From positions 1 to 64,000 of the forward strand of contig VFZU01000018.1 of the NCBI GenBank assembly GCA_016870995.1: a stretch of DNA of 64,000 nucleotides. Direction: 5' to 3'. Positions 1,255 to 51,215 of the stretch are shown piece after piece. Each line of letters starts with the position of its first letter. The first letter of the stretch is position 1. The notes beneath the pieces were generated by a model. The model searched no databases. It was given only the letters and a program-made list of their open reading frames with translations, and had not been told where the DNA came from. Source of the DNA: Acidobacteriota bacterium. GTDB lineage: Bacteria; Acidobacteriota; Terriglobia; Bryobacterales; Bryobacteraceae. A program made the translations under genes and the position numbers.

Positions 1255-3990
1255 TTAGGCTGTCCGGTTCTCGGTCTTCGAGCCCTTGGCCAGTGCGGCT
1301 TGGGCTGCGGCCAGGCGGGCGATCGGGACACGGTACGGGGAGCAGCTGACGTAGTTCATGCCGACGCGGTAGCAGAAGGCCACCGAATCCGGGTCGCCGC
1401 CGTGCTCGCCGCAGATGCCGATTTCGATGTCGGGACGGGTCTTGCGGCCCAAGTCGATCGCCATCGCAATCAGCTTGCCAACGCCCTCTTGATCGAGCGA
1501 ACCGAAGGGATCGGTCTTGAAGATCTTGAGGTTTTCGTAGTGAGCGTTGAATTTCGTATAGTCGTCGCGGCTCAACCCCATCGTCGTCTGAGTGAGGTCG
1601 TTGGTGCCGAATGAGAAGAATTCCGCATACTGCGCCACTTCATCTGCGGTGATCGCCGCGCGCGGGATTTCGATCATCGTGCCGACGTAATACTTGAGAT
1701 CCGGCATGCCGGCCTTCTCCAAAACTTCCGTCGCCACGCGGACTACGATTTCCTTCTGGTTGTCGAGTTCGCGATAGCCGCCCACGAGCGGGATCATGAC
1801 TTCCGGAATGATCTTCTTGCCCTTCTTGGCAACCTGGACGGCCGCTTCGAAAATGGCGCGTGCCTGCATCTCGGTGATTTCCGGATAGGTGATACCCAGA
1901 CGGCAACCGCGATGGCCCAGCATCGGATTCATTTCATGAAGCTCTTCGACCCGATGCAACACGTGCGGGAGATGCTTCTTGAGGTCCCCGACCTTGCAGC
2001 CGAACTTCTCGGCCATTTCCTTCTTTTCTTTCGCGCCAGCATGCGGCAACTTCGCAATCGCCACCATGAGGTCTTCGCGCTTCGGCAGGAATTCGTGCAG
2101 AGGCGGATCGAGCGTGCGGATCACGACGGGGAAGCCTTCCATCGCTTCAAACAAACCGGCGAAATCCTTGCGCTGCATCGGCAACAACTTGGCGAGCGCA
2201 GCGCGGCGGCTCTTCTCGTCGCGAGCCATGATCATGGCCTGCATGAAGGGCAACCGGTCTTCGGCGAAGAACATGTGCTCGGTGCGGCAAAGGCCAATGC
2301 CTTCAGCGCCAAAGTTGCGAGCTGCCTTGGCATCCTTGGGGATGTCGGCATTCGCGCGGACGCCGAAGCCACCACGGAATTCGTCGGCCCAGCCCATGAA
2401 CTCAGCGAGGAAGCCGCTCTTGGTGTTCGGCTCCACTGTCTTCGACTGGCCGAGGTAGAGATCGGCGGTCGTACCGTCGATCGAGATGAAGTCGCCTTCT
2501 TTCACCGTGACGGTCTTGTCGCCCGCCTTCACCGTGAACTTCTTGCCCTTCTCGTCGATCGAGATCGCGCCAGCGCCTACGATACAGGGACGGCCCATGC
2601 CACGGGCCACAACGGCGGCGTGCGAGCTCTTGCCGCCCACCGCGGTGAGAATGCCCTTGGCTGCGTCCATGCCCGCGATGTCGTCGGGAGTGGTTTCCTT
2701 ACGGACCAGGATTGTCGGACCCTTCTTGGACATTTCAACCGCGCTCTGCGCGCTGAATGCCGCCATACCCACGGCTGCGCCGGGGCTGGCCGCGATGCCC
2801 TTGCCGAGCTTCACGAGTGACTTCAGGCTTGCGGTGTCAAACACGGGGTGCAGCAGTTGATCGAGCTGGCTCGGGGCCACGCGGGTCACTGCGTCATCCT
2901 TGGTGATCAGGCCTTCCTTCACCATTTCCACAGCAACGCGCACCGCGGCAGGACCCGTACGCTTACCGTTACGCGTCTGCAGCATGTAGAGCTTGCCGGC
3001 TTCGATGGTGAACTCGAAGTCCTGCATGTCCTTGTAGGCCTTTTCGAGGTTCGTCGTGATTTCCTTGAGTTCCTTGAATGCGGAAGGCATGACCTTTTCG
3101 AGGTCGGCAATCGGCTGCGGAGTACGGATACCGGCGACGACGTCTTCGCCCTGAGCGTTGATCAGGAACTCGCCGTAGAAGACCTTTTCGCCGCTGCCAG
3201 GGTCACGCGTGAAGCCCACACCGGTGCCGCAATCGTCACCCATGTTGCCGAAGACCATCGCCTGAACCGTGCAAGCCGTGCCGATGTCATCGGGGATCCG
3301 CTCCATCTTGCGGTAGTAGACCGCCTTGTCGTTGTGCCAGCTGCGGAAGACCGCATCGCGCGACATATTCAGTTGCTCGAGCGCATCCTGCGGGAATTCC
3401 TTCTTGGTTTCCTTCTTCACCAGCTTCTTGTAATCGGCGATGATCGATTGCAGGTCGGCGGCCGAAAGATCGGAGTCGATCTTGATCTTGCGCTTCTTCT
3501 TCTTTTCGTCGAAGATGTGGTCGAAGTGCTCCATCTCGATGCCGAGGGCGACTTCGCCGAACATCTGGATAAAGCGGCGGTAGCAATCGTAGGCGAAACG
3601 ATCATTGCCCGTCTTCTTGGCGAGGCCAGCCGTGGTGACATCGTTGAGACCCAGGTTGAGGATCGTGTTCATCATGCCCGGCATCGAGAACTTCGCGCCG
3701 GAACGCACGCTGAGCAGAAGGGGATCGTTGGGATCGCCGAGCTTCTTGCCCATGAGCGCTTCGAGCTTGGCGAGCGCGTCATGCTGCTGCTGCTGGATGT
3801 CGGCTGGAACCTTGTTGCCGTTCTGGAAATAGATATTGCAAACTTCCGTCGCGATCGTGAATCCACCCGGAACGGGCAAGCCGTAGCGGCACATCTCGGC
3901 GAGGTTTGCACCTTTACCGCCGAGAAGGTCTTTCATACTCTTGTCGCCGTCGGCCTTGCCGCCGCCGAACGAATACACATACTTCTTCAT
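1255..3990 (-). CDS. ppdK: Pyruvate, phosphate dikinase
   Basis: Interconverts pyruvate + ATP + phosphate and phosphoenolpyruvate + AMP + pyrophosphate in the cytoplasm, linking glycolysis and gluconeogenesis. At 911 residues it is full length for the family. Visible in order are the N-terminal ATP-grasp region (GGKGANLAEM near residue 25), the phospho-carrier motif GGKSSHAAVVARG with the catalytic histidine near residue 455, and the C-terminal PEP/pyruvate barrel with [16 protein letters not shown] and CGEHGGDP (catalytic cysteine near 858). The ATG overlaps the glyS stop as ATGA, so translation is probably coupled to the glycyl-tRNA synthetase genes. The last ~145 codons are duplicated at 694-1129. 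Confidence 0.98.
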   Translation of the reverse strand: MKKYVYSFGGGKADGDKSMKDLLGGKGANLAEMCRYGLPVPGGFTIATEVCNIYFQNGNKVPADIQQQQHDALAKLEALMGKKLGDPNDPLLLSVRSGAKFSMPGMMNTILNLGLNDVTTAGLAKKTGNDRFAYDCYRRFIQMFGEVALGIEMEHFDHIFDEKKKKRKIKIDSDLSAADLQSIIADYKKLVKKETKKEFPQDALEQLNMSRDAVFRSWHNDKAVYYRKMERIPDDIGTACTVQAMVFGNMGDDCGTGVGFTRDPGSGEKVFYGEFLINAQGEDVVAGIRTPQPIADLEKVMPSAFKELKEITTNLEKAYKDMQDFEFTIEAGKLYMLQTRNGKRTGPAAVRVAVEMVKEGLITKDDAVTRVAPSQLDQLLHPVFDTASLKSLVKLGKGIAASPGAAVGMAAFSAQSAVEMSKKGPTILVRKETTPDDIAGMDAAKGILTAVGGKSSHAAVVARGMGRPCIVGAGAISIDEKGKKFTVKAGDKTVTVKEGDFISIDGTTADLYLGQSKTVEPNTKSGFLAEFMGWADEFRGGFGVRANADIPKDAKAARNFGAEGIGLCRTEHMFFAEDRLPFMQAMIMARDEKSRRAALAKLLPMQRKDFAGLFEAMEGFPVVIRTLDPPLHEFLPKREDLMVAIAKLPHAGAKEKKEMAEKFGCKVGDLKKHLPHVLHRVEELHEMNPMLGHRGCRLGITYPEITEMQARAIFEAAVQVAKKGKKIIPEVMIPLVGGYRELDNQKEIVVRVATEVLEKAGMPDLKYYVGTMIEIPRAAITADEVAQYAEFFSFGTNDLTQTTMGLSRDDYTKFNAHYENLKIFKTDPFGSLDQEGVGKLIAMAIDLGRKTRPDIEIGICGEHGGDPDSVAFCYRVGMNYVSCSPYRVPIARLAAAQAALAKGSKTENRTA

Positions 3991-5966
3991 GAAGCGTGGG
4001 TCTCCTGTGTCTTGGGAACAATCTCTGAGAATTCGGCGATACCCGAAAACTCTGTTTTGAGGCTAAATAACAATGTTAGCCGATTCGCGCGCACGGCCAT
4101 GTCCGGCGCGTTCACCAGCACCTTTTCGAAAAACAAATCGACCGCCGGCCGCAGTGTTGCCATTGCCGCCAGAGTTTGTGCGTATCCCGTCCCTTTGCTG
4201 CTCGCAACCACTGCTTCGAAGGCTTTCCATAAGGCGCCTTCTGAGGGGTCTTCGAACAAGCCCGCATCCACCTTGCCGCTGGGGGAGAACTTCGCCTGGT
4301 CGAGGATGTTCTTCATCCGCTTGAAGCTTGCCGCCAGGGGTTCGAAATCTTCGCTTGCGCGGACGGCCTTGACGGCTTCGAGCCGCGCCAGCACGTCCTG
4401 GATGTCATCGGCACCCGCTGCCAGCACGGCGTTGACTTCGTCCATCGCATAGCCGCGGATTTCGTTCGTGTAGTATTTGACGCGCTCGATCAGGAACTCG
4501 TCGAGCTTGTCGACGCCCGCCGCCAGTTGTTTCAAGCCGATGCGCAACTCGCCTTCGGCGAGGATCTTGATGATGCCCTGGGCGGCGCGGCGTAGGGCAA
4601 AGGGGTCCTTGGAGCCGGTTGGGATCAAGCCGATGCCAAAGCAGCCGCGTAAAGTATCCACTTTGTCGGCGAGGCTCAGCAATTGCCCGTCGCGGGTGCG
4701 CGGAATCGAATCTTCCATGCTGACGGGCTTGTACTGGTCGTAGATGGCCGTGGCCACTGCTTCGGGTTCGCCTTGGGCCTTGGCATAGAGGCCGCCGACG
4801 ATGCCCTGGAGTTCGGTGAACTCCTTCACCATTTCGCAGGTGAGGTCGGTCTTGGCGAGTAAGGCTGCACGAGCGGCCGAATCGTCTCCGCCCAGTTCGC
4901 GGACGAGGGCTACGACGCGTTCGGTCTTGGCGTGGTAGCTGCCGAGTTGGGCCTGGAAGGTGACTACTTTGAGGTCCTCGACGCGGGCCGGCAGATGCTT
5001 CTGCTGGTCGACGTCGTAGAAGAAGCGGGCATCGTTGAAACGGGCACGCAGTACGCGTTCGTTGCCATGCTTGACGAGACCGTCGCCGTCGCCCGAGGTG
5101 TTCATGACGGCGACAAACTGAGCGGCTAGCTTGCCGGTTGAGTCTGTGACGCTGAAATACTTCTGGTGGAAGCGCATGACGGTGACCAGCACTTCTTCGG
5201 GCAGGCTGAGGTAGTCCGCCGAGAACGAGCCCAGAATCGGTGTCGGGAACTCGGTAATGTTGGTGAGCGTGTCGAGCAGCTTTGCGTCGGCCTTGACGCC
5301 TGCGGGCAAGCCCGCCACGATCTTCGCCCGCCGCTCTTCACCGCGGAGGATGACAAAGTTCTCGCGCAGTTTTTGTTCGTAGTTGTCGATCGTGACCGCA
5401 ACACGATGTGCGCCCAACTGACGGTGGCCGCCCGTTTCGTTGCCTGAGGTGATGCCGTTGATCGTGAACGGTACGACATCGCCGCCCAACAAACAAAGCA
5501 GCCAGCGGATGGGACGGATGAACCGCGCCCCGCCCTTGCCAGGCCACAACATCGTCTTGGGCCAGGGAATGCCGAGGATCAAGCCGGGCAGCCCGCTTGA
5601 GAGAATCTCGGCGGCTGCCTTGCCTGCGACTTGTTTGCGATAGCTGTAGTAGGTGCCTTTGGCGGTTTCGACCAGTTCCAGTTGATCGACGGTAATGCCG
5701 TTCTTTTTGGCGAAGCCTTCGACGGCTTGCGGATTGGCCTGCTTGGGCGGGCCGCTGATTAACTCTTCGCGGTCGGCTTCGCGCTCGGACAGGCCGCTGA
5801 CCTTGACGGCGAGCCGTCGCGGCGTGGCTTCGGACATGACGACCTGGCCACCTAACTGCGCCACTAATTCGCCGACCTTACCCGCCAGATGCGACAGTCC
5901 GTCGGCAATCATCCAATCGGGAATTTCTTCAACGCCGATCTCAAGCAGCAAATCCTTCGTTGCCAT
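3987..5966 (-). CDS. glyS: Glycine--tRNA ligase beta subunit
   Basis: Beta subunit of the heterotetrameric bacterial glycyl-tRNA synthetase, which recognises tRNA-Gly. The protein has 659 residues, normal for the family, and begins with the typical DLLLEIGVEEIPDWM. The middle carries the HD-like core segments (RFIRPIRWLL, VLRARFNDARFFYDVD) and the end carries the DALR-like anticodon-binding region (VLVNAPDMAVRANRL). The start codon overlaps the glyQ stop as TAATG and its stop overlaps the ppdK start as ATGA. The gene therefore sits in the middle of a translationally coupled series. Confidence 0.97.
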   Translation of the reverse strand: MATKDLLLEIGVEEIPDWMIADGLSHLAGKVGELVAQLGGQVVMSEATPRRLAVKVSGLSEREADREELISGPPKQANPQAVEGFAKKNGITVDQLELVETAKGTYYSYRKQVAGKAAAEILSSGLPGLILGIPWPKTMLWPGKGGARFIRPIRWLLCLLGGDVVPFTINGITSGNETGGHRQLGAHRVAVTIDNYEQKLRENFVILRGEERRAKIVAGLPAGVKADAKLLDTLTNITEFPTPILGSFSADYLSLPEEVLVTVMRFHQKYFSVTDSTGKLAAQFVAVMNTSGDGDGLVKHGNERVLRARFNDARFFYDVDQQKHLPARVEDLKVVTFQAQLGSYHAKTERVVALVRELGGDDSAARAALLAKTDLTCEMVKEFTELQGIVGGLYAKAQGEPEAVATAIYDQYKPVSMEDSIPRTRDGQLLSLADKVDTLRGCFGIGLIPTGSKDPFALRRAAQGIIKILAEGELRIGLKQLAAGVDKLDEFLIERVKYYTNEIRGYAMDEVNAVLAAGADDIQDVLARLEAVKAVRASEDFEPLAASFKRMKNILDQAKFSPSGKVDAGLFEDPSEGALWKAFEAVVASSKGTGYAQTLAAMATLRPAVDLFFEKVLVNAPDMAVRANRLTLLFSLKTEFSGIAEFSEIVPKTQETHAS

Positions 5967-6862
5967 TACGCCGCCACCTCACCCTTCGTGTACTGCTGGT
6001 CGACCCAGATTCCGGCGACGCCGACAGCCAGCTTTCTGACTCTGCCGATCACGCCGACACGTTCCGTGACGCTGATGGCGCCGCGCGCGTCGAGCAGGTT
6101 GAACAGATTTGAGCACTTCAGCACCTGGTCGTAGGTTGGCAACACCGGGAAGCGTTCTTTGCCTGTTTCGAGACCCTTGTAATGGTCGATCAATCGCTGG
6201 CACTCGCCTTCGTGCAGTTCGAAGAGCTTCCAGAGGGTTGGCACGTCGGCCATCTCAAAGTTGTAGACGCTGAACTGTTGCTCTTCCTTGAGCCGGACGT
6301 CGCCATAGGCGAAGGCGTCTGTCCACTGGATGTCATAGACGCTTTCTTTGTCCTGGAGAAAGGCGCACAAGCGCTCGAGGCCGTAGGTGATTTCGGCTGG
6401 CACGAGATCGAGATCCACACCGCCACACTGCTGGAAGTAGGTGAACTGCGTGATTTCCATGCCGTCGAGCATGACCTGCCAGCCGATGCCCCAGGCACCG
6501 AGGGTGGGGGATTCCCAATTGTCTTCTTCAAACTTGATGTCGTGCTTTTTGAGGTCGATCCCGATGGCTTCGAGAGAGCCTAGGTACTGCTCAATCACAT
6601 CTTCAGGTGTGGGCTTGAGGATCACCTGCAACTGCGAGTGCTTGTATAAACGGTTCGGGTTCTCGCCGTAACGACCATCCGCGGGCCGACGGCTGGGCTG
6701 CACATAGGCGACGCGGTACTCGTCGGGACCCAACACGCGCAGGAACGTCTCCGGGCACATTGTGCCGGCGCCTACCTCTACGTCATAAGGCTCGGTGATG
6801 ATGCAGCCTCGTTCGGCCCAATACTGCTTGAGCCGGAAAATCATTTCCTGATAGGTTTTCAT
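5966..6862 (-). CDS. glyQ: Glycine--tRNA ligase alpha subunit
   Basis: Catalytic alpha subunit of class II heterotetrameric glycyl-tRNA synthetase. From the ATG at 6862 the protein is 298 residues, which is normal, and begins [15 protein letters not shown]. Family hallmarks visible are the [12 protein letters not shown] segment, the motif-2-like [19 protein letters not shown] and the [19 protein letters not shown] block. The frame is open further upstream, but that extension overlaps recO and has no family similarity. The chosen ATG overlaps the recO stop as ATGA. Confidence 0.97.
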
Positions 6863-7497
6863 GCCATTTCCTCCAGCATCGGGGCGGCCAGCAGGCGCCT
6901 CTCGATATGGTCTTCGATCAAGCGCACCATGGCCCGCCGCAAGTCTTTGGCTGTTGAGGCAGTCCAATCGCGCTCCGGCATCTGCTCGACACTGTGCTTC
7001 AGAATCTCTTCGAGAATCCCCATGGACTCTGCCCCCACCCGCACTTCTGGCAGAAATCCGCTCAACCGCACCGACCAAACTTCAAAATACGTCACCGCCC
7101 GCCAAACTCCGCTTTCGCCCGCACCGCGCAAATACTCAAGCACACGTGCCAATAGGCGGAAGTACTTTTCGTTGACTTCCGCCATCGGCAACAAATGTTC
7201 ACTGATTTCAGCCATCACATCTAGCGCCAGCCCGGTCGTGTACACACGGCTTAACTCAAACTGCGAGTGTTGAAGATCGCAGTGGTCAATCCGAACCAGG
7301 TCCCGGTTTTCTCGCGCCGTGTAGTGGATTTGCACCTGGCTCAACCGTTCGAGCGAACTCCCAAAGCCGCCTTTGGGTCTTCTCGCACGATTGGCCACAC
7401 CTCGCAATTTCCCGTGGTCACGTGTAAAAAAGCTGACGATGAGGTCAGCTTCTTTAAAGGGATAGGTTCGAAGCACGATCGCTTCGCTGGCAATCAA
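6859..7497 (-). CDS. recO: DNA repair protein RecO
   Basis: RecO loads RecA with RecR in the RecFOR recombinational repair pathway. The N-terminal OB fold is clear ([20 protein letters not shown], then [16 protein letters not shown]). The protein has 212 residues, slightly short for the family, and contains a single cysteine, so the four-cysteine zinc finger of many RecO proteins is absent. The start is TTG at 7497; an in-frame TAG four codons upstream excludes a longer form. It begins 12 bases after the TonB-receptor stop and overlaps glyQ by ATGA, so receptor, recO, glyQ, glyS and ppdK may share transcription. Confidence 0.9.
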
Positions 7498-7509
7498 GAT
7501 ACTAGGCTA

Positions 7510-10500
7510 TCAAAAGAAGAAGTGGAATCCCATCCGGAGCGTACGAGGGCCCTGGAAAGCACTCGCCAAACCAAACTGTGGATTCACCCGGATATCCTGA
7601 GCTCTCATCAGCGCACGGTAGTTGCTGTAGCCCTTGAAGATATCGGCTGTGTTGGCGAATTGGATGTCGCCATCGTTGGGATGGGTGATGCTCACCGACT
7701 TGTTTGTGACCGCTGCGTTGTTGAACAGGTTGGTCACGTTGAGTTCGAGCCGGAAGTAGCGTGTATCGCTGCTCTTCAACTTGACGTCATGCGTCAAGAG
7801 CAAGTCGCCCTGGAAGAACATGGGAGTTCTGCCGAGGTCGCCGCGGCCGTTCGGGTAGACGGGAACGCCGCCGAGTTGAACTTCGGTCGTCAGCGGGGTG
7901 CCGCTGTACCAGTTCACAACCGGGGCGAAGTGCATGTTGCCGCCGAGCCACTTGCGGTTATAGCTGGTGAAGAGCTTGAACGTGTGCGGGCGGTCTGTGG
8001 CGAGGCGTCCGGTAACGAGCTTGCCGCCCTGGTCATAGGACATCCAGGCTTCGTCAAAGTACCGGTTTACGTTCGGGCTGGTGCGGCCGTTCTCATCCGA
8101 GCTGGCGAGACCAGAGTAGTTGCCATAGAGGCGGCTGAGGGTGTAGCTCGCATTGACAAAAGTGCCTGCGAACCGCTTGGTCACCGACAGTTCCAGGGCA
8201 TCATAGTCGCGCTGGGCTTTTGGCGTTACGTTGGCAGGGTAGCCCGCCGGGAACCTCTTCGGGTCGATCGTGTAGCCAAAGCCCGGGTTTGCAATGTAGT
8301 ATTGCTCGCCCTGCGGAGTGAGAATGCCGACGTCTTCGATCGTACGAATCAGAGACTTGCGCGAGTAACGGGAACGGAACAAGTAGTTGCCGGCGAAGTT
8401 CTTCTCGAATCCGAAGTCGAAGGCTCTGTTCTGCATCGGCTTGAGGTCGGGGTCGATCAGGTTGTTGGTGGGGTCGTTTGAGGGGATGCGGTTATCCACC
8501 ACTTCGATCAAGCGGCCCGGGAAGGTGCCGGCATTGCCGATCGAGCCCGGTGTGACTTTGATGTCGAAGATGTTGGTTGTGGTGAGCGTGTAGTAGTAGT
8601 CTTTCCACTTGTCGCCACCGAAGCTGCTGCGGGGCAGTTCGTATTTGAACAGGTCGAAGTAGACGCTATAGCTGCCGAAGAACTTCATCTTGCCTTCGCC
8701 GCTGGGGTCATAGGCGAAGCCGACGCGGGGAGCAAACTTGTCGCCCCAGCCGAAGCTGATGGCGCGGCTGGCGATGCCGCTGTCGGTGCGGTAGCTGGGG
8801 ATGAATTCGTTTTCGGTGCGCAAGCCGAGGTTGAGGGTCAACTTGCGGTTTACTCTCCAACTGTCGTTGAAAAAGATGCCCATGTTGCGGCCACTGACAT
8901 CGCCCTGGGTGGCGAACGAGCGATTGATGTAATAGCCGTAGGGTCCGCGTGCGCCGCGCTCGGGGGTGGTGAGTGCGTTGCGGCCCTGATTCCAGTAGAT
9001 GAAGATGTAGCCGTCGGCCCAGGCGCCGGCAACGGGCGAGTTCATCATGTTGTTGTAGGTCCAGCCGAACTTGACGTTGTGCTGTCCGCCCTTGTTGAAG
9101 AGCCAGCTGCCCATCGCATTGACGTTGTTTCGCTTGTAGATGTCCTGGGTGGTCTGGCGATTGTCAGGCGTGAAGTTGCCCGCCGCGCCCAACAGACTGG
9201 CCGGAATCTCATTGGTGAAGGGCAATGCGCGGTTGCTGTTCTGGTAGCGGTAGCGGGTGCCGCGCGGGATGCCGTAATCCGCAAAGTTGGTGTACTGGTA
9301 TCCGCCGAAAACCGAGAACAAGAGATTGTTCGCGGCGGTGTAGTCGGCCTGGTAGTTGTAGCTGGTCATTGGCGAGCGGCTGCCCCGTTGGCTGAAGGGA
9401 GTGGCGAAGGAATCGGTGCCTTGTTGGCTGGGCAGGAGTCCGTTGATCTTGTAGGGGTTGTGCTGGTGAGCGAAGAACGTACGCAGCTTGGAGAAGACCT
9501 GGTAGTCGACCTTGTTCAGGATGAAGTCCTGCCGGTCGCGGCGTTCGTAAACGCCGGACTGGCCACTGAGAAATCTCACGTTGCGTTGAAACTTCTCAAA
9601 TTGCGGGTAGGCGCTGGTGAAGAACCAAATGCGGTTCTTGAGGATGGGTCCGCCAAGCCGGAAGCCCGGGTTCAAGGACCTGAGCCCATCGCGCGTATTG
9701 CCGAAGTAGTCGGCGATATCGTCGTTGTTGGGGTTGAGCCGGAGGGTGGGCCGCGGTCCCGCGTTCATGCCGTCGGTCGAGAGATAGAGCGAGGCTTGTC
9801 CGTGGAATTCGTTGGAGCCGCTGCGGGTGGTGGCGGAAACCACACCGCCCGTCGCTCCGCCGAACTGGGCGTCGATGCCGGAGCTCTTGAGCTGCGTTTC
9901 CGCGATCCACTCGATGGGGACGCGATTCTGGCGATTCAAGACGCCGGTTTGGATATTGGTGACCTCGAGGCCGTCCACGACGTAGACGTTTTCGGAACCG
10001 CTGGCGCCATCGACGGAGTAACCGCCGCCTTTGGTCTCAAGCCGGGTGCCGGGTGCCATGCCAAGGAGTGTGTCGAAGCTGCGGCCCTTGGGCAGCTTGT
10101 CATACATTTCCGCAGTGACGTTGGTTGTCACGACGTTGGTCTGAGTGTCGATTTGAAGGGCTTCGGCACTGACGGAGATGCTTTCGGTCACCTGGCCGAC
10201 TTCCATCTTTGGACTGACGGAGGTGACGCGGCCCACGGATACTGAGAGGTTATTGGCGACGAACTTGGTGAAGCCCTTGGCGGTCACGGTCAGCGTATAA
10301 ATTCCTGGGGGTACGGCTCCGATGAGGTAGCCGCCACTGGCGTTGGAGGAGGTCTCCTTGACGAATGTGCCACCTTTCAATTCCAAGGCCGCTCCTGCGA
10401 TTGCGGAGCCAGACACATCAACGACCGTTCCTTCGACGGTGCCGACTCGTTCTTGAGCGAGCAACTGCGTCGAAGTGATTGCAAACAAAACTAGAGAGAG

Positions 10501-40317: not shown

Positions 40318-40611
40318 CTACTGCAGCGGCCCGTTGCCGCCAGTGGGCTCAAGACGAATTTCGCCAAAGGTGCCTTCGTATTGGGCAATGTTTTGGTTGA
40401 GCAGATTCGCCAGTGCTTTGGCCTGCTGCGGACTCAGATAGACACCTTGAAAATTAGTGATGTTCACGGTGTCCGGCTGAGTTTGTGAAATGGTGCCAAA
40501 CATCAGGAAGAAGTCCCAGAGGTTGACCCGCACCTGGACCGAGTTTGAATACGACTCTTTATAGTCATCGCTTTGGGCGATCTGCAATTTAGGGGAGTTG
40601 TTGGGGAACAT
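40318..40611 (-). CDS. DUF3467 domain protein
   Basis: A 97-residue protein from ATG 40611. It matches DUF3467: YSNSVQVRVNLWDFFLMFG at the start, then GVYLSPQQAKALANLLNQNI and the closing YEGTFGEIRL. Function is unknown; homologues are small cytoplasmic proteins of one domain. The frame is open upstream across the tRNA-Asp gene, but that part is not coding. It begins 26 bases after the tRNA 3' end and may be cotranscribed with it. Confidence 0.88.
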   Translation of the reverse strand: MFPNNSPKLQIAQSDDYKESYSNSVQVRVNLWDFFLMFGTISQTQPDTVNITNFQGVYLSPQQAKALANLLNQNIAQYEGTFGEIRLEPTGGNGPLQ

Positions 40612-40636
40612 AAATCGAGCGAGTGGCGGGAGGAAA

Positions 40637-40713
40637 TGGCGGGGACGACGGGGCTCGAACCCGCGACCTTCGGCGTGACAGGCCGACGCTCTAACCAACT
40701 GAGCTACGTCCCC
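40637..40713 (-). tRNA. tRNA-Asp (GTC anticodon), CCA encoded
   Basis: On the minus strand the cloverleaf folds completely. The acceptor stem is GGGGACG/CGTCCCC, the D-arm GCTC/GAGC, the anticodon stem TCGGC/GCCGA with loop CTGTCAC (anticodon GTC), and the T-arm GCGGG-TTCGAGC-CCCGT with one G-T pair. Discriminator G is followed by a genomically encoded CCA. Confidence 0.97.
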
Positions 40714-40812
40714 GCAAACTGCGCGAAAATGTAGAATAACACAAACTACGGACCACAAGCTAGCGAAGAATCGAGTTCGCTGGCAAGAGGCTCTGGAATC
40801 GAGGATCTAGCC

Positions 40813-42796: not shown

Positions 42797-43333
42797 GTGC
42801 AACTTCAGATTATCACTTGGTCTCTCATCGCCATTGCCCTAGCCGGTTGCGGACCGACCTATCGTGCCGTCGAGGTTACCGACGTGAAGGCAAAGCCGGG
42901 GGCAACGGACGCCAGCCGCCCTGAGATGGCGGTAGAGGAATCTGAAGCGCCAAAGTCGGTGAAGCTGGATGGCTTCAAGCCGATCGAGTGGAAGGTGCTG
43001 CGAGGACTCGACGTCAAGACCGGGAAGTCCACCAACGATCTGGCGGCCTACACAGGGGCCAATATCAAGATCAACGGGTTCATGGTGCCATTTGACGACG
43101 AGGACGAGCAAGTGACCGAGTTCCTGCTAGTGCCCCAAGCGGGCATGTGCATCCATACGCCGCCTCCGCCGCCGAACCAGATCATCCTGGTGGAGGTAGC
43201 GACGGGAGGGGCCAACCGAGTGGAGTGGGACAAGGAAGTTTCCGTATATGGGCAGTTTCAGATTGTGGACGGAAACAGCCCTTACGGGAAAACGGGGTTT
43301 AAGATCGCGGCTGTGCGCGCCAGGCCCGACTAG
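42797..43333 (+). CDS. DUF3299 lipoprotein (copy 1)
   Basis: A 178-residue lipoprotein: the signal peptide ends in lipobox LAGC with cysteine 18. The mature part has a ~40-residue charged linker, then DUF3299: EWKVLRGLDV, VKINGFMVPFDDEDEQ-like block, and CIHTPPPPPNQIILVEV. The cysteine/histidine/poly-proline motif could bind metal. The start is GTG at 42797 with no evident ribosome site. A paralogue sits at 50724 inside an ABC transporter operon. Its last four bases overlap the convergent MerC-like gene. Confidence 0.88.
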   Translation: MQLQIITWSLIAIALAGCGPTYRAVEVTDVKAKPGATDASRPEMAVEESEAPKSVKLDGFKPIEWKVLRGLDVKTGKSTNDLAAYTGANIKINGFMVPFDDEDEQVTEFLLVPQAGMCIHTPPPPPNQIILVEVATGGANRVEWDKEVSVYGQFQIVDGNSPYGKTGFKIAAVRARPD

Positions 43334-43740
43334 CTAGTCTGGCAGCACTTACACTTCGCCTGATTGCGGAAGTGGGCCGTGCCGATCAACGTGCCGCCCG
43401 CAACCATTCCGAAAGGTTCCAGGTTTTCAGGAGTCTCGAAAAAGACGCTCTTGGCGATGAAGATCAGCGATACGCCGATCAGGAAGTAAACTACCGGTTC
43501 GGGCTGGCGGTGCTCCTTGAAATAGCTCCAAAAGAGCCGGATCAAGCCGATCGAAAGGCTGGCGATGATGATCGTCCATTCTGTGGTCTCTTCGGCGATC
43601 CATCCCAGCCCGTTCACGGCAAGGTAGCCGATCACGAAGGGCATCAGGGCGCAATGAACTGCGCAACCATAGGAAAGCCACATGCCAACTTTGTCCCAAA
43701 ATGTGCGAGCGGGCAAGGGTGCTGAAAGGTCTTGAGACAT
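43330..43740 (-). CDS. MerC-like membrane protein with C-terminal cysteine cluster
   Basis: A 136-residue inner-membrane protein from ATG 43740. It has about four hydrophobic segments. The first contains GCAVHCALMPF, the MerC-type paired-cysteine/histidine metal site, and the tail ends HFRNQAKCKCCQTS, a second likely thiol metal site. MerC proteins bring mercury across the membrane, but no mer operon is present here. Other MerC-domain proteins may handle zinc or copper. An open frame extends upstream to 43854 but crosses the divergent promoter region. Confidence 0.85.
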   Translation of the reverse strand: MSQDLSAPLPARTFWDKVGMWLSYGCAVHCALMPFVIGYLAVNGLGWIAEETTEWTIIIASLSIGLIRLFWSYFKEHRQPEPVVYFLIGVSLIFIAKSVFFETPENLEPFGMVAGGTLIGTAHFRNQAKCKCCQTS

Positions 43741-43744
43741 TGAG

Positions 43745-43865
43745 ATCACTTCCAATGATAGCTCAGTAGCCACAACGGCCGACCGATCCTGCCATCCGTG
43801 TTCGTGAAACAAAACGTACATATTCCAGACTTGCTGTAGTTGCTCGAATCGCATCGGAAGTGATG
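43745..43865. promoter_or_regulatory. Divergent intergenic region bounded by 9-bp inverted repeats
   Basis: ATCACTTCC at 43745-43753 and its exact inverse GGAAGTGAT at 43857-43865 flank the region between the MerC-like and DoxX-like genes. Each copy sits just ahead of a possible start codon. It may be a regulator site or a coincidence of two ribosome-binding regions. Confidence 0.3.
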
Positions 43866-44284: not shown

Positions 44285-45076
44285 TTATTTGCCGCGGGCG
44301 AGTTCTGCCATACGCGCGTTGAGTCCGCGCAATTGGCGCAGTTCGTCTTCGGCTTGTTGCAGCGCGTTCTGGATGCGAGATAGGTCACCGGCTTGAAGAC
44401 CCTGGCCTGGGTTCTCGCGAGTCTGCAGATTCAGGCTGAAGCTGCGGTAAAGGTCGGTCACTTCGCGGTAGCGGCGCTCGAGGGTAACCACAGCGGCTTC
44501 CCGGCGGCGATTGAGATCTTCCACTTCCTTGTTCGCCACAACGGCCCTCTTGGCGGCTAGCTCCGCCTTTGCCAGTTTTTCCTGCAGCAGCTTTTCAGCG
44601 GTTTCACTTTGCACGAGGCGCTGCGCTTTGAATTTCAACTCGGCGTCGAGAGCATCGCTGACGCGCTGCTGCTTGCCCAGATCTTCTCGCAGGCTTGCGA
44701 GTTGATCGGCGAGCTTGCGGGTCTCTTCGGCTTGCGCTTCGGCTTTCTCTTTGACGTTGTGAGCATCTTCGCGTGCCTCTTCGATGTCCTTTTCCAGCTC
44801 CTGCGTTTTTGCCCGCAGGCTGTCGATCATCTGAAGGTAATTGCCGACATCGACCTTATCTTTAACGATGCTTGGTTGCTTCGGCGAGACCGCTGGAGTT
44901 TTTTCAAGCAGTTGCGTGGGTTCCTCGACCGGAACGACAACACCTGTCTTGAGAAGCTCGGCCTCGAGCCTGGCCACGCGGCCGGCCACCGCAAGACGGC
45001 CCTGTTCGGCTCGCCACCCCAGCCAGCCTGTGACGCCAAGCAATCCCAGCAATGCGACCACAATCCAGTTCTTCAT
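44285..45076 (-). CDS. Membrane-anchored coiled-coil protein
   Basis: A 263-residue protein from ATG 45076. One N-terminal membrane helix (NWIVVALLGLLGVTGWLGW) is followed by a short linker and a long charged coiled coil (roughly residues 85-235, heptads rich in E, A, L and R). A short glutamine-rich end follows. No catalytic domain is seen. By its position as the last gene of the run from hemB, it may link the inner membrane to periplasmic components. It begins eight bases after the VWA gene. Confidence 0.78.
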   Translation of the reverse strand: MKNWIVVALLGLLGVTGWLGWRAEQGRLAVAGRVARLEAELLKTGVVVPVEEPTQLLEKTPAVSPKQPSIVKDKVDVGNYLQMIDSLRAKTQELEKDIEEAREDAHNVKEKAEAQAEETRKLADQLASLREDLGKQQRVSDALDAELKFKAQRLVQSETAEKLLQEKLAKAELAAKRAVVANKEVEDLNRRREAAVVTLERRYREVTDLYRSFSLNLQTRENPGQGLQAGDLSRIQNALQQAEDELRQLRGLNARMAELARGK

Positions 45077-45084: not shown

Positions 45085-45978
45085 TTACTTTCCCAGCGCG
45101 AAACGCGCGCGGTTTGGGATGTCCCTGTCTCCGTTCAATACATCGACCGTCACGGTGCGGCGCTTGCCGCTCTTCAGTTCCACGGCGACACTCCAATGCC
45201 GTGCCGCTGCCATCATGACACGATCCACGGCTTCGGGGATTTCGCCCCGGCTGCGGCAGAAAACTCCGAGCCCGCCTGACTCCTCGGCAAGCTGTGCCAG
45301 ACCACGCTGGTATGCCTCATTAATGGGGTCGGCGAAGAAGCTAAGCTGCACAACAAAGATCGGCGTTTCAAATCGCGCCAATTGATCGGAGATCTTTTGA
45401 ATTTTCTCGCGCACCAATTGATCGGGAAACTTGCGGCTCAAGTCTCGGGCGTCGCTCGCATTGATAACCGGGTTCGTGTAGTCTTCACGATAGTTGGCAA
45501 TGTTGCTATCTGTGACATAGACCACGGCGACGCGTGCACCGCTCTTTTGCAAAATCCTTTGCCCGATTGACGCCACCGATTCCACGCTGTCCAGCAATCC
45601 CGCCTTTCCCGTGGCGGCATAATCCTTGATGGCTTGGGAAATCTTTTCACGATCTGCAGTTGGGTCGACCAGTGCTTTGAGGCTGTCTTGTGACCGCAGC
45701 AGGCCTACCCACTGATTCTTCGCAAGCTTGCCGGTTTGTTCCACCAATGCATCCCGCGCGGTATCAACCAACGTAGCGTCACCGCTGACATCCATTACGA
45801 GTAGCAAGACAAGATCATCTTCTGGCCCCTGTACGCGCAGCACCTTCGCTTCGAGGCCATCCAGTTTGGCGGCGAACGCACCTCGTTCGAGTGGCGGTTC
45901 CTGCTGAGGCACGGCGATGCGAATCACGGTCGGCGGGGGTTCTGCTGAAAGCAGCAGAAGTAGGATCGCCGGAATCAA
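45085..45978 (-). CDS. Secreted VWA-like protein with degenerate MIDAS
   Basis: A 297-residue protein with a signal-like N-terminus (MIPAILLLLLSAEPPP). The von Willebrand A fold begins LVLLLVMDVSGDATLVDTA; the MIDAS motif is DVSGD instead of DxSxS, so metal binding may be altered. ARVAVVYVTDSN supplies the later conserved aspartate strand. This is like the VWFA-related proteins common in Acidobacteria. The start is TTG, overlapping the barrel stop (TTGA), with GAGG upstream. It likely mediates protein-protein contacts in the periplasm. Confidence 0.8.
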   Translation of the reverse strand: MIPAILLLLLSAEPPPTVIRIAVPQQEPPLERGAFAAKLDGLEAKVLRVQGPEDDLVLLLVMDVSGDATLVDTARDALVEQTGKLAKNQWVGLLRSQDSLKALVDPTADREKISQAIKDYAATGKAGLLDSVESVASIGQRILQKSGARVAVVYVTDSNIANYREDYTNPVINASDARDLSRKFPDQLVREKIQKISDQLARFETPIFVVQLSFFADPINEAYQRGLAQLAEESGGLGVFCRSRGEIPEAVDRVMMAAARHWSVAVELKSGKRRTVTVDVLNGDRDIPNRARFALGK

Positions 45979-48767
45979 AAGCTCAACCTCACACCCAGTT
46001 GGATCACTCTTCCGCCGCGGGATTCAATACTGCGCCCTGCGTTGACATTGGGAGCCGAGGCGGGGCCGATGACCGTATCCGGGTCGGCCCAGTTGCCCGT
46101 GTTGGTCCAGTTGAAGCCAGTCGCGTTGAGCTCAATGACGCGCTCGGCCGTAATTGCAAAGCGCTTGCTGACGGACAGATCATGGTTCTGGTTGCCTGGT
46201 CCCAGCAGTTGCGGATGCGTTCGGAAGCCATTGCCCGCTGTGAAATCAGCAGGCTGCGCAAAGGCTCCAGGGTTGAACCAGCGGTTCGGGTTGGGGTTCT
46301 CGACAGTCGGGTCAACGCCGGGTACGAGGTTCACGCGAAGTGCCTCGATCACCCCGCCGGTATTGTTGAACTGAGGGCGCAGGGCAATCGGTTCGCCGCT
46401 TTGCACTGCGGTGATGCCGGAGATCGACCAGCCGTCGACGAGATAGCGCCGCCAGTCCTGAAAGGCGAGCAGGGGTTTCTTGGCACCGATTGGAAGTTCG
46501 TAGCTAAAGCTTAAAGAGAGGCGGTGCGGATTGTTGCTCGAAGTGAGACTCCACTCGTTCTTGAAGTTGTAGAAGTCCTGCACGCCGTATGGGCCGGAGT
46601 AATCGTCCATCTGTTTTGAAAACTCGTAAGTAGAGTTCACTACCAGGCCAGAGGCGGAACGTTTTTCGACTCGAACCGCCGCAGCGTTGCGCTTGTAGTT
46701 TGCCGACGGCCACGAACTGAAGACATTGAATCGTTGGTATTGGGGATAGGGTCTGATCGTGCGGCGATAAGCCTCGCTGTTCAAAGCGTCACGATCCGAA
46801 AGAAAAGACAACGGGATTGCGTTTGGGTTGACAGCCGAGTTGGAAACGAACATCCGCTGTCCGCGCGCATGGCCCAGGCTGAGGCTGACAATCGTCTGCG
46901 CCGCGAGGGTTCGCTCGAGAGAGAGACCCGCAGATTGATAGATCGGCAATGTTCCTGTGCGGTCGATCAAGTCTGCCACCGTGAAGTTTGCGGCCTCGCC
47001 GCGCAGGTCAGGCAGGGGCCGACTCAGCGGCGGAGCCCCTTGAGCGAGCGTTACCACTGGCGAGAGTTGGATGTTGGTCGAAACGTACGCGGGTTGCGCA
47101 ACGAAGCCTTGGGTGGCCCATTGTGTCGTGTAGATTGGGATGCCGCTAAAACTCAAGCCATAGCTGAGGCGCAATACACTTTTCGCATTGCCACCGGGAT
47201 TCCAGGCCATGCTCAGACTCGTTTCCGGTCGCCAACGTCCCTGTTGCAAGGCGCGGCCGTTCCCGTCGCGGTTGGCGAAGACCAGAGCTCCGGGACGGTT
47301 GTTTGCGGGGTTAATCGCTGCGAGGTCTACGGTTGCAAACCGGTCGAACTTCTCATGACGCGGTGTGGCGAGGGACATGGCGAAATTGGCGGTGAAGGTA
47401 AGATCTTTCGAATACTCGTAGGTGTCGCTTGCCGCCGCCCGCCAATAGCTGCCACGCCAGTAAGAGGGTTGTTCCACCACGGTTGCTGCGCCGCTTTCAG
47501 CCAGCCCGAGTACGAAGCTTGCAAAGCCAAGGCCCGTATTGACGACGCCGGGAAGGGAAGTGAGCGATGGGCCAAACTCGAAACTGCCGGCAGGGTTGCG
47601 CGGCAGATAAGCGTTCACCTGATAGCGGCGAAATTGGCCTGTCAGGCGCAGGCGATGTTTGCCGAGGCGGGTGGAGAAACCATCCGTCAGGTAGTAGTAA
47701 TTGTGTGCGCTGATGTTGATCGGATTCAGGCGACCCATCGGCAAATAATCACCAAAGCGGAACACTGGGAAAGCGTCCTTGAGCGGACCTTTGAGCCCAA
47801 GCAATTCGATCGCTTGTGCCTCTCCCTCACGGCCACCAATGGACTTGTCGGAATGCACGTCAAACGTCAGCGAGTGCACTGTTGAGGCGTTGCGTATGAA
47901 AGTCCAATCGAGGATGCCGCGCCGCGCGCGGAAGTCGCGGTCGTTGTTGCTGGAGTCGGCAATGGTGTTGAAATAACGCGGCGCACCCGCCAGGCCATTC
48001 GTGAAGGACCCGTTGAATGTCAGCCGATGCCGCTCGCTGAGTGTGTGGTCGACCTTGAAGATCATGCCCTCGGCGCGGTTCGTCTCCGGGGCAAACACGA
48101 AGTAGTTGTTGCGAAAGAACGGCCCAGCGCTGGCGTTCGGCTTGGGGTAGAAAGCGATGGCCCGTTGTGCCACCGGGTCGAGCCTGGTCGCAGGAATGAC
48201 ATTGCCAACAAAGGGGTCTCGAGCAAACTGCGGGTTCGTGATGCTGACAGGGCGCGAGGGGTCATAGGCCGGGTTTGAGCGCGTAGTGGCCGGGTCAAAA
48301 ACAGGCAGCGGATTGCCTGCGGCATCGACTGTTTTTGAGAAGTCGCCCGTGCGTTCCGGGTCAATGGCGACCGTGCGCAGATAGGATCGGCCGATCCGTT
48401 CGCGAACGCCCTCATAAGACACATTGACGAAAGTGCGGCGCGATCCGTCATAAAGCCCTGGGATGATGACCGGGCCGCCTGCGTTGATGCCGAATTGATT
48501 ACGGCGCAAGAGGTTGCGCGAGCCGCCGCGCTGTACAACCTCGTGGGGGGTGGCATCCAGTTTGTCGTTGCGAAAGTTTTCGAACACGCGGCCATGCCAG
48601 CGGCCAAACACCGAGGGGCGTGCAGCCTTAGCCGTTGGGCCACCTTCTCGAAGGCCCATCTCCTGGGTCGCGACTTTGAACTCCTCCACGGCCTTTTCGA
48701 GAGAGGCTTGCCATCCATGGAGCAACCCGACGGTCGTCAACAGCAATAACAACCAGATGAAGAACAC
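45975..48767 (-). CDS. Oar-like outer-membrane beta-barrel lacking plug and N-terminal domain
   Basis: A 930-residue protein that goes from a signal peptide (MFFIWLLLLLTTVGLLHGWQA) through a ~35-residue charged linker straight into the barrel. WHGRVFENFRNDKLDA and NQFGINAGGPVIIPGLYDGS correspond to the segments that normally follow the plug in Oar-like receptors. It ends VIQLGVRLSF with terminal phenylalanine. The carboxypeptidase-regulatory-like and TonB-plug domains are absent. An in-frame TAA four codons before the GTG, and only 30 bases to the permease stop, leave no room for them. Ribosome site unclear. Confidence 0.85.
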   Translation of the reverse strand: MFFIWLLLLLTTVGLLHGWQASLEKAVEEFKVATQEMGLREGGPTAKAARPSVFGRWHGRVFENFRNDKLDATPHEVVQRGGSRNLLRRNQFGINAGGPVIIPGLYDGSRRTFVNVSYEGVRERIGRSYLRTVAIDPERTGDFSKTVDAAGNPLPVFDPATTRSNPAYDPSRPVSITNPQFARDPFVGNVIPATRLDPVAQRAIAFYPKPNASAGPFFRNNYFVFAPETNRAEGMIFKVDHTLSERHRLTFNGSFTNGLAGAPRYFNTIADSSNNDRDFRARRGILDWTFIRNASTVHSLTFDVHSDKSIGGREGEAQAIELLGLKGPLKDAFPVFRFGDYLPMGRLNPINISAHNYYYLTDGFSTRLGKHRLRLTGQFRRYQVNAYLPRNPAGSFEFGPSLTSLPGVVNTGLGFASFVLGLAESGAATVVEQPSYWRGSYWRAAASDTYEYSKDLTFTANFAMSLATPRHEKFDRFATVDLAAINPANNRPGALVFANRDGNGRALQQGRWRPETSLSMAWNPGGNAKSVLRLSYGLSFSGIPIYTTQWATQGFVAQPAYVSTNIQLSPVVTLAQGAPPLSRPLPDLRGEAANFTVADLIDRTGTLPIYQSAGLSLERTLAAQTIVSLSLGHARGQRMFVSNSAVNPNAIPLSFLSDRDALNSEAYRRTIRPYPQYQRFNVFSSWPSANYKRNAAAVRVEKRSASGLVVNSTYEFSKQMDDYSGPYGVQDFYNFKNEWSLTSSNNPHRLSLSFSYELPIGAKKPLLAFQDWRRYLVDGWSISGITAVQSGEPIALRPQFNNTGGVIEALRVNLVPGVDPTVENPNPNRWFNPGAFAQPADFTAGNGFRTHPQLLGPGNQNHDLSVSKRFAITAERVIELNATGFNWTNTGNWADPDTVIGPASAPNVNAGRSIESRGGRVIQLGVRLSF

Positions 48768-48797: not shown

Positions 48798-50060
48798 CTA
48801 AACCTTGACGCTGAGGCCATCGGCCAGAGTATTTCGGTAGGCTCGCCAGGCGGGAACCAATCCAATCAGCAACGCCGCGGCAACCACGATGCCGAGGTAA
48901 ATCGCGTGTTCCTCTTGGAAACCCTGCCAGCGGAGGTAGAGCCCGAATTGTTGCTCAACGAGATTTTGCAGGGCGGCGACGCCTGAAACCATCAAGCCCA
49001 CCCCCAGAGCACAACCAGACAAGGCGAGCAGAAGGCTCTCGATTAGAAATAAAGCCAGGATTTTGACCGGGCCGGCGCCGAGTGCTCGAAGGATTGCCAT
49101 TTCACGGCGTCGCTCATTGAGCGTGGTGTAAATCGCGACCAGCATCCCGAGCAACCCGACAAGCACCACGAAGCCACCGACAATTTCAAGCGCAATTTCG
49201 GCGTACCTTACGGTGGACCAAAGCTCGCCCATCGCGACACCGGGGATGATCGCCATCAAGGGTTCAGGCAAATAGTTGGAGATGTCACGCTGTAGGCGGA
49301 GCGTATCGATGCGGCTCTTTGATCTCAGCAAGAATGCAGTGATCGCCTCGGGACGCAGCTGTTCTGCAGTCAGCTTTTTGGCCGATACTTCTTCCCCGGG
49401 TTCTGGCGGAGCGCCGCCTTCCCAACCGACATGGATGGCACTCATCCCTTCGAGAGTGATGTAGACGCTGCGATCGATCGGGGTCGCGGTCTTGGCGAGG
49501 ATCCCCACAATCGTGAACGGATTGTCGTCGTGGTCCATGATCCCGGCCGCGCCCATGCCATGTGTGAGCACAACTTTTGCTCCCACTTGATAGCCCAGCT
49601 TTGCGGCAACGTCGCTACCCAGAGCTGCTTCATTAAAACTTGCAGGAGCTCGTCCGCTGGCAAATTCAGGTTTGCGTGTCTTGCGAAACCGGTAGTGCTC
49701 GTAGAAATTCTGATTGGTGCCGACGACGCGGAAACCGCGATGGCTATCGCCCAGCGAATAGGGAATGGTCCAAGCGACTGCCGGGTGCTTCGACCATTCT
49801 TCATAGCTCGAGTATTTGACGTTATTCGTGGCCGTGCCCATGCGGAAGACGGTGTAGAGCAGCAATTGCAAGCCGCCGCCGCGCGCACCGGCAATGAGGT
49901 CTGTACCGGAGATGGTGGATGAAAAGCTCTCGCGGGCACTCACGCGAAGAGCCTCGACACCCAGCAGCAAGGCAACGCTCAAGGCGATCGAAACTACCGT
50001 GAGTAGCGTGGTGACGCGCCGGTTTCTAAGGCTCTTCCAGGCCAGAGACAGAAGCAACAC
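48798..50060 (-). CDS. FtsX/MacB-type ABC transporter permease
   Basis: A 420-residue permease with one N-terminal helix (VTTLLTVVSIALSVALLLGVEAL), a ~220-residue periplasmic domain (TDLIAGARGGGLQLLLYTVFRMG ... SLGDSHRGFRVVGT), and three C-terminal helices with the FtsX core (LNERRREMAILRALGAGPVKI). This periplasmic domain resembles the permease usually found next to DUF3299 in proteobacteria. The GTG start overlaps the ATPase stop (TAGTG). It uses ATP energy for extraction or export, not classical import. Confidence 0.92.
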   Translation of the reverse strand: MLLLSLAWKSLRNRRVTTLLTVVSIALSVALLLGVEALRVSARESFSSTISGTDLIAGARGGGLQLLLYTVFRMGTATNNVKYSSYEEWSKHPAVAWTIPYSLGDSHRGFRVVGTNQNFYEHYRFRKTRKPEFASGRAPASFNEAALGSDVAAKLGYQVGAKVVLTHGMGAAGIMDHDDNPFTIVGILAKTATPIDRSVYITLEGMSAIHVGWEGGAPPEPGEEVSAKKLTAEQLRPEAITAFLLRSKSRIDTLRLQRDISNYLPEPLMAIIPGVAMGELWSTVRYAEIALEIVGGFVVLVGLLGMLVAIYTTLNERRREMAILRALGAGPVKILALFLIESLLLALSGCALGVGLMVSGVAALQNLVEQQFGLYLRWQGFQEEHAIYLGIVVAAALLIGLVPAWRAYRNTLADGLSVKV

Positions 50061-50749
50061 TACGCAACCTCCGTTCGAGATGCCCGGTTCAGATCTGGCA
50101 GGCTGAGGCGTTTTTCAAACAGTGGCGCGAGGCTTTGGTCGTGAGAAACGAACAGCAGTGCGGCCCCAGCGGATTTGCACTGCGCGAGCAGCAATTCAAG
50201 GAAGCGCTGGCGATGGGCGCTGTCGAGCGCGGAAGTCGGTTCGTCGGCGATCACTAATGGAGGCGCGCCGATCAGGGCTCGAGCCGCTGCGACGCGCTGT
50301 TGCTGCCCAACGCTCAGTTCGAGGACGCCGCGATCGAGCAGCGGTGCGATGCCCAGCGTAGAGGCGATCGCTTCGAGCCCTTCCGCCTTTCGCGCAGAAT
50401 GCAAACGCGTCGGCAGCAGAATATTGTCACGCACGGAAAGATAAGGGATCAGATTGAACATCTGAAAGATGTAGCCGATGTTCGAGCCGCGAAAAGCGTC
50501 CCGCTTGGAACTGCTCATGGCTCGCAGATCCTTTCCCAGAACGTTCACCGAGCCTTGTCGTGCTTCGAGCACACCAGCAATCAGACCCAGCAGCGTCGTT
50601 TTCCCGCAACCGCTGGGGCCATAAAGAAAGCAGGATTCCCCGGCGCTGAGTTCGAAGCGGTCGAGGTCGATCACATCGGGGAGTTTTGAGTTGTAGCCGA
50701 AGCGTACTCCTGCAAGGAGGACGCTACTTGGATTTGTAGGGCTCGACAT
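50060..50749 (-). CDS. LolD/MacB-type ABC transporter ATPase
   Basis: A 229-residue ATPase. Walker A is GPSGCGKT near residue 47, the Q-loop is YIFQMFNLIPYLSV, the signature LSVGQQQRVAAARAL, Walker B LVIADEPTSALD, and the switch histidine FVSHD. The pattern places it in the LolD/FtsE/MacB group. Its start overlaps the DUF3299 gene by 26 bases and its stop overlaps the permease start, so ATPase and permease should be made in fixed ratio. Confidence 0.94.
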   Translation of the reverse strand: MSSPTNPSSVLLAGVRFGYNSKLPDVIDLDRFELSAGESCFLYGPSGCGKTTLLGLIAGVLEARQGSVNVLGKDLRAMSSSKRDAFRGSNIGYIFQMFNLIPYLSVRDNILLPTRLHSARKAEGLEAIASTLGIAPLLDRGVLELSVGQQQRVAAARALIGAPPLVIADEPTSALDSAHRQRFLELLLAQCKSAGAALLFVSHDQSLAPLFEKRLSLPDLNRASRTEVA

Positions 50750-51215
50750 TCGCCACTGTCATCTGGTAGGACACAGAGCCGAAAGGGCTGCCGGTCTTGT
50801 TGATGGTAATCTTGCCTTCGAACCAGTTCGGTTCGAACATGGCTACCTTTGCCTTTTTCTTGTTCACCATGCGGCAGTAAACGATCTGATGCGGAGGCGG
50901 AGGTGGGGTGTGGATGCAGCCTCCGGCGATGGGCACAATCAGGTATTCGTCCGCTTCCTCTTGATCGTCGTTTTCAAGCGGAACCATATATCCAGCAATG
51001 CGAACCGTGGTGTTGTCGATTTTCTTGAGATCGGGAGGGGGTTCACCAGTGGCGAGATCCAAAGATCGCAACAAGCGCCATTGCACGGCAGGCGCACCAG
51101 CAGGTTTGGTGTCTGCCGCTATGAGCGGCAGCGATGCCGGGTCTTCCAGGGTCATCAGAAGCGCCAATGTAAGCACTGCGAAAGCAAGCCGACGGATCGT
51201 CTGCATATTCATCAT
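50724..51215 (-). CDS. DUF3299 periplasmic protein (copy 2)
   Basis: A 163-residue protein with a signal peptide (RLAFAVLTLALLMTLEDPAS) rather than a lipobox. The DUF3299 core is WRLLRSLDLATGEP, VRIAGYMVPLENDDQE and CIHTPPPPPHQIVYC. Compared with copy 1 (42797), an extra histidine and cysteine follow the poly-proline. Its ATG overlaps the hemB stop as TAATG; a second and third in-frame ATG follow closely. Position next to the ATPase and permease suggests it is their periplasmic partner. Confidence 0.9.
   Translation of the reverse strand: MMNMQTIRRLAFAVLTLALLMTLEDPASLPLIAADTKPAGAPAVQWRLLRSLDLATGEPPPDLKKIDNTTVRIAGYMVPLENDDQEEADEYLIVPIAGGCIHTPPPPPHQIVYCRMVNKKKAKVAMFEPNWFEGKITINKTGSPFGSVSYQMTVANVEPYKSK

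Follow-up and report, generated by a model that had tools for sequence, protein, structure and literature searches.

The window analysed here is a stretch of 64,000 nucleotides, positions 1-64,000 (forward strand) of contig VFZU01000018.1, from an Acidobacteriota bacterium of the Bryobacteraceae (assembly GCA_016870995.1). On its minus strand lies a gene of 930 codons (45975..48767; GTG start at 48767, stop at 45975) that encodes a plugless, Oar-like outer-membrane barrel of 22 strands and 930 aa, an assignment based on the Pfam family PF25183, an AlphaFold2 (AF2) model, matches to the barrels of TonB-dependent transporters (TBDTs), and intact orthologues. An in-frame TAA stands four codons upstream of the GTG (the whole open frame is 934 aa), and 30 bases separate the gene from a permease gene at 48798. 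The protein opens with a probable Sec signal peptide, judged by eye (residues 1-20, MFFIWLLLLLTTVGLLHGWQ; 48708..48767, minus strand); orthologues have a hydrophobic N-terminus at the same position. Next come a conserved N-terminal hook (residues 21-40, ASLEKAVEEFKVATQEMGLR; 48648..48707, minus strand), delimited by column entropy and profile matches and probably left over from the final segment of the plug, and a variable linker (residues 41-57, SGGVVNVVTKSGTN; 48597..48647, minus strand), delimited by entropy and by comparison with ten full-length paralogues, in which the last plug strand occupies this position. The barrel domain, set by the model and by conservation, covers residues 56-930 (45978..48602, minus strand), of which about 490 are extracellular loops. 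Two further genes follow on the same strand: one for an exported VWA protein of 297 aa (45085..45978), recognized by VWA_2, TIGR03436 and co-occurrence as the obligate partner, and one for a coiled-coil protein of 263 aa (44285..45076, ATG at 45076), an accessory third gene according to the comparison of loci.

The only Pfam family in the 930-aa protein is PF25183 (OMP_b-brl_4; E 5.8e-132; 442.2 bits against a cut-off of 30), with residues 56-923 matching positions 8-838 of the 838 in the profile. The Pfam search found no CarboxypepD_reg domain (PF13620) in the barrel protein, and no plug domain (PF07715 or equivalent) was detected by Pfam search, structural alignment or upstream search; the region that carries the TonB box in TBDTs is absent. 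For comparison we used ten full-length Oar paralogues, drawn from the genome of the window and from related ones. These proceed from a signal peptide through CarboxypepD_reg and a plug ending in ...VEEFKVETNGLKAEFGQTSGGVVNVVTKSGTNEF to the first barrel strand, HGSLYEFFRND, at about residue 245-300; in the window protein the corresponding position (WHGRVFENFRND) is residue 57.

The AF2 model, built with 81 orthologues (pLDDT 88.6, pTM 0.81), supersedes an earlier one from 23 sequences that was too poor (pLDDT 67). Counting its strands confirms 22, from residue 58 onwards: 58-67, 87-102, 106-132, 221-242, 247-261, 276-293, 296-312, 350-368, 371-387, 435-453 and 456-467 (strands 1 to 11), and 511-522, 530-540, 609-621, 625-641, 686-703, 708-721, 748-757, 780-789, 859-871, 877-885 and 921-929 (strands 12 to 22). 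Before the first strand there is only a low-confidence helix and linker (signal peptide plus about 35 residues, pLDDT 49-73), and the first 100 residues of the model hold no folded plug. VIA-align gave Z scores of 12-15 against BtuB, FyuA, FoxA and FhuA, and paired residues 53-57 of the model with BtuB 134-136, FhuA 158-159 and Cir 161-162; the alignments begin at the plug/barrel junction of these receptors. Sequence searches of the PDB with the barrel and VWA profiles returned no useful match. The first-pass annotation, made from the DNA sequence alone, had described an Oar-like barrel that lacks plug and N-terminal domain, begins with its own signal peptide, and reaches barrel sequence within about 60 residues. 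Pfam, the model and the structural alignments bear out this architecture; the signal peptide stands as probable, and the barrel sets in at residue 56 (Pfam match) or 58 (model strands). Its exclusion of a lost 5' portion was equally sound, both the TAA four codons upstream and the 30-base gap being correct and no plug lying upstream.

An orthologue of the barrel was the top match in 24 of 31 relatives, with 41-75% identity, while other Oar barrels scored 298 bits or less. Scanning genomes yielded 80 loci, from Bryobacteraceae and Bryobacterales MAGs and from two cultured or near-complete genomes (F-183 and KBS 96). At 104 orthologous loci, a search of the upstream DNA (up to 2 kb) found no plug belonging to the barrel gene; the queries were the N-termini of ten full-length Oars, which as a positive control detected one another in 90 of 90 pairs. 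This search gave two matches: one was a full-length Oar encoded on the other strand, the second a decayed Oar-like fragment (E 0.007), out of frame, about 470 nt away and present in one genome only (L068), which was rejected. Nor was a relative found with a full-length receptor at the same locus. Among the PF25183 matches of five near-complete relatives, none of the 150 best-scoring barrels sits in a frame shorter than 1045 aa. A quickly computed tree with 38 barrels places its 28 plugless members together on one side of a single branch (SH-aLRT 100), so that one loss of the plug is enough. Two genomes of other Acidobacteriota families (G305 and G092) also possess a plugless barrel, at 42% identity and with an adjoining VWA gene, and one genus (G217, G464) has two copies in tandem. 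The survey of plugless homologues and their neighbours gives one clade, in the loci examined always adjoined by the VWA gene.

The short stretch between signal peptide and barrel is unevenly conserved: mean column entropy is 1.47 in the hook versus 2.73 in the linker, and among the 81 orthologues F30 is invariant (81/81), closely followed by A26 (80/81) and G38 (78/81). A profile of orthologue residues 21-58 was run against the ten full-length Oars together with 200 shuffled copies. Its five best matches, weak singly (i-E 0.07-0.45), all fall on EEFK in the full-length Oars and score above the 200 shuffles. The spacing from EEFK to the HG of the first strand is also close, 30 residues in the plugless barrel versus 33 in full-length Oars. 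From the match and the spacing, the deletion appears to end just before the plug's last segment; the hook would then be a probable remnant of that segment (the EEFK region), apparently retained after the deletion.

The VWA gene lies downstream of the barrel gene at every locus with enough downstream DNA, and of 74 loci, 59 have a potential VWA start codon that shares 1 or 4 nt with the barrel stop (4 nt in the window, TTGA, at 45978-45975). Across 250 genomes of the order, in counts uncorrected for phylogenetic non-independence, the barrel occurs in 136 and the VWA gene in 135, with both in 132 and neither in 111. The seven mismatches (four barrel-only, three VWA-only) are contig ends, several of them with a fragment of the missing partner. 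The presence of the pair is patchy even within genera (g1, g19, g233), both genes being present or absent together, and chance linkage is unlikely because they are jointly absent in several genera. The VWA protein is thus an obligate, usually translationally coupled partner of the barrel. VWA_2 matches the window protein at 5.5e-5 and 17 of the 22 partner-family members; TIGR03436 (acidobact_VWFA) likewise matches 17 of 22, at best with 1.1e-8 and always below its cut-off of 81.25 bits, and the window gene is absent from the TIGR03436 matches in its own genome. Of the metal site (MIDAS, DxSxS...T...D), D63 and D157 are kept in 22/22, S65 is S or T in 13/22, and position 67 is usually D. A nearly invariant insert (Y163 R164 ... 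N173 ... D176 ... D179.SR.F) comes right after D157, the second Asp of the site, and is a candidate contact surface.

The first-pass annotation had named both the adjacent VWA protein and the coiled-coil protein as candidate partners: the former is upheld by its adjacency and by the 132 of 250 genomes that have both genes, the latter is not. The coiled-coil protein, with a hydrophobic or lipoprotein-like N-terminal segment, is encoded in most loci of the window's family, and was rejected as a core member in view of its absence beside the barrel-VWA pair in family f3 and in G305 and G092. Upstream of the barrel gene, the ABC ATPase, permease, DUF3299 and HemB genes resemble the Vibrio ZrgBCE zinc genes (PMC9817125). 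This neighbourhood is particular to the window genome, and a zinc-uptake partner was rejected as part of the unit because those genes adjoin the barrel in no relative examined. More widespread is a divergent lpxD gene (lipid A synthesis), beside the barrel in 31 of the 80 loci and usually accompanied by a LOG-family gene, which may be the older arrangement.

A plug packed on the barrel wall, whether in cis or in trans, should make lumen-facing residues more conserved than lipid-facing ones. This is the case in two sets of full-length Oars, with p-values that here and below treat positions as independent: 0.72 (lumen) versus 1.15 bits (lipid) in 22 sequences from the same genomes (mean identity 0.58; p 2e-5), and 1.14 versus 1.51 in 22 more diverse sequences (identity 0.445; p 0.0016). 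The lumen face is the more conserved in 18 of 22 strands in the first set and again in 18 of 22 in the second. The 23 plugless sequences (identity 0.51) show no such difference between the faces (1.51 versus 1.52, p 0.67, on the same footing; 13/22 strands). Faces were assigned by residue alternation and hydrophobicity, and assigning them from either group gave the same result. The extracellular loops of the plugless barrels match those of the first Oar set in conservation (1.21 versus 1.17) and are more conserved than those of the second (1.20 versus 1.59). We read this pattern as the probable loss of any kind of lumen-filling partner, with selection now seeming to act at the external cap and on the tail in the periplasm. 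Relaxed conservation of the lumen would also be expected if a partner touches the rim only, or if the barrel is a mere anchor. With no sequence present to fill the barrel, and given this test, we infer a lumen without a folded domain, into which the loops may fold.

TBDTs are driven by TonB through the TonB box at the plug (PMC6434023, PMC11658791); this region being absent here, the plugless barrel is probably not TonB-driven. The explanation we favour, with modest confidence, is that it arose naturally from an Oar-type TBDT by losing the plug and is kept as half of an obligate barrel-VWA envelope unit, presumably TonB-independent, closed or narrowed by its loops, and with the VWA protein docked at the hook. 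CarboxypepD_reg and nearly all of the plug would have been lost once from an Oar-type transporter, and the barrel retained by selection together with a degenerate VWA protein, the two genes forming one envelope unit. With the plug gone, and with it the region that bears the TonB box, the barrel would work without TonB; its lumen would hold no folded domain and be closed or narrowed by the conserved extracellular loops. The hook, on its flexible linker, would hang into the periplasm and recruit the VWA protein, which may cap the periplasmic mouth or serve there as a platform for docking, and the coiled-coil protein, where present, might tie the complex to the inner membrane or periplasm. Docking and gating by the VWA protein we infer from gene linkage and conservation. 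A large open pore had been expected unless another protein gates the barrel; the extracellular loops are just as plausible a means of closing it. We put forward, as a tentative idea short of probable, that a TBDT lineage has been rebuilt for TonB-independent work, the VWA protein, recruited by the C-terminal stub of the plug, capping a 22-strand barrel that is otherwise empty and has a fixed lid on its extracellular side; this would be a new way of keeping a giant barrel safe.

The first alternative is that the loops seal a non-conducting barrel that serves purely as an anchor, holding a surface cap and a periplasmic assembly of VWA and coiled-coil proteins. The lumen wall free of plug-type conservation, beside conserved loops and hook, would suit this, as would a periplasmic partner with or without the coiled coil, and the lpxD found divergently beside the barrel in 31 of 80 loci hints at envelope biogenesis; a 22-strand, 900-residue barrel is, however, costly to keep as a mere anchor, and we regard this reading as rather unlikely. 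Improbable, in our view, is a transporter plugged in trans, with the VWA protein or a free plug filling the lumen and moved by TonB or another motor. A soluble plug domain does partly restore a plugless FpvA barrel in trans (PMC10994204), and the VWA protein is obligate. The extra conservation of the lumen face, however, is lost relative to two control sets, and a snug plug in trans is unlikely because this conservation is gone while the loops stay conserved. Moreover, a conserved free plug gene was not seen in the single-contig relative G446, where the one exception is split and frameshifted (G455 has one short free-standing plug frame of 255 aa), and Pfam found no plug-like domain in the VWA protein. 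We give equally little credence to an export channel like Myxococcus Oar but constitutively unplugged, for which the VWA protein would choose or hold periplasmic cargo: Myxococcus Oar is required for secretion of the protease PopC and the partner is on the right, periplasmic side, but that secretion needs plug and TonB box (PMC6434023), and no conserved cargo gene was found beside the barrel-VWA unit. That the gene is decaying, or owes its shape to truncation, a misplaced start, a frameshift or faulty assembly, as single stop codons in a few orthologues (L101, G574 and the second G588 copy; the others are open) might suggest, is practically out of the question, being refuted by the upstream search, by the shared architecture and almost always intact frames across more than 100 genomes, by in-frame stops just upstream, by the one-clade tree, and by long-term conservation.

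Among known systems, the nearest are the Oar-type TBDTs of Acidobacteria and Myxococcus, which combine a PF13620 CarboxypepD_reg domain, a plug and a PF25183 barrel. The plugless barrel shares with them the 22 strands, the first-strand motif HG..FE.FRND.LDA, and about 30-33% identity to paralogues of the same genome, but has no CarboxypepD_reg or plug, lacks the region that bears the TonB box, and has a dedicated VWA gene. It is a member of the Oar barrel family and, because a plug was tested for and not found, not a functional TonB-dependent transporter by definition; routine annotation, which would name the protein a TonB-dependent receptor, is corrected by this. Its VWA partners resemble TIGR03436 proteins through the weak model matches in 17 of 22, but make up a distinct conserved family, marked by an insert of its own, an incomplete MIDAS and a fixed linkage to the barrel. 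Large, empty outer-membrane barrels that depend on a separate partner are familiar from LptD with LptE and from SprA with PorV or a plug protein; the likeness ends with this dependence, their families being unrelated to the plugless barrel. Deleting the plug is a standard experiment in TBDTs, and is read as giving a leaky or unstable barrel. A plugless lineage spread over an order of Acidobacteria and provided with its own partner is in this respect a natural experiment on the purpose of the plug: on which residues of the lumen face the plug constrains, by what means a plug-free 22-strand barrel can stay tight, and whether a VWA protein can assume the role of gate or dock. In the literature searched, whose coverage of subscription papers is incomplete, we found no TBDT family that lacks the plug in nature. 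A Myxococcus Oar deprived of both plug and N-terminal extension failed to accumulate (PMC6434023); this observation speaks against our preferred explanation, as does the incomplete metal-site motif of the VWA protein. Engineered plugless FpvA and Myxococcus Oar have in common with the window protein a TBDT barrel without plug; those engineered barrels show poor binding or fail to accumulate (PMC10994204, PMC6434023), whereas the barrel described here is natural, ancient and under selection, and its family is the natural counterpart of the plug-deleted receptors of the laboratory.

Oar-type outer-membrane barrels are strongly expanded in the window's genome and its relatives, with at least 35 in most genomes; VWA proteins of the TIGR03436 (acidobact_VWFA) model are expanded as well, with about 17 full ones in the window's own genome. 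Within the plugless clade, that is, the orthologues of the window barrel, two loci carry tandem plugless barrels: L175 of genome G464 (4094-10040), where the pair is followed by the VWA gene, and L176 of genome G217 (3356-9734). Both genomes belong to one genus, and the tandem is a duplication within the plugless clade. Two further families within the phylum also have plugless barrels, of about 42% identity and each with a VWA gene (G305, locus L170, 5130-8934; G092, locus L171, 5739-9476); their presence there may reflect either transfer or old inheritance.

Stray Oar N-terminal/plug sequence was found in two relatives. Upstream of the barrel at locus L068, some 470 nt away, lies a decayed, out-of-frame piece of the CarboxypepD_reg/plug region (NINLSVQNRLDFTLRLCAVSDTVTVEG), and in G455 (C1:2349800-2350417) the N-terminal/plug region occupies a frame of just 255 aa, possibly a fragment or a free-standing plug.

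In 31 of the 80 named loci the barrel is divergently adjoined by lpxD, mostly together with a LOG-family (lysine-decarboxylase-like) gene, as also at L036 (7905-9718) and L041 (64-1883). These surroundings are probably the ancestral arrangement, lost in the window.

A tRNA-Asp (gtc) at 40637-40713 of the window falls inside the mechanical ORF 40318-40758, the start of which is therefore wrong. At 48798-51215, on the minus strand, genes for an FtsX/MacB-type permease, an ABC ATPase and a DUF3299 protein stand consecutively behind HemB, and at 42797-43854 a second DUF3299 gene overlaps the end of a MerC-family gene. This set resembles zrgB, zrgC and zrgE of the Vibrio zinc-uptake operon ZrgABCDE.
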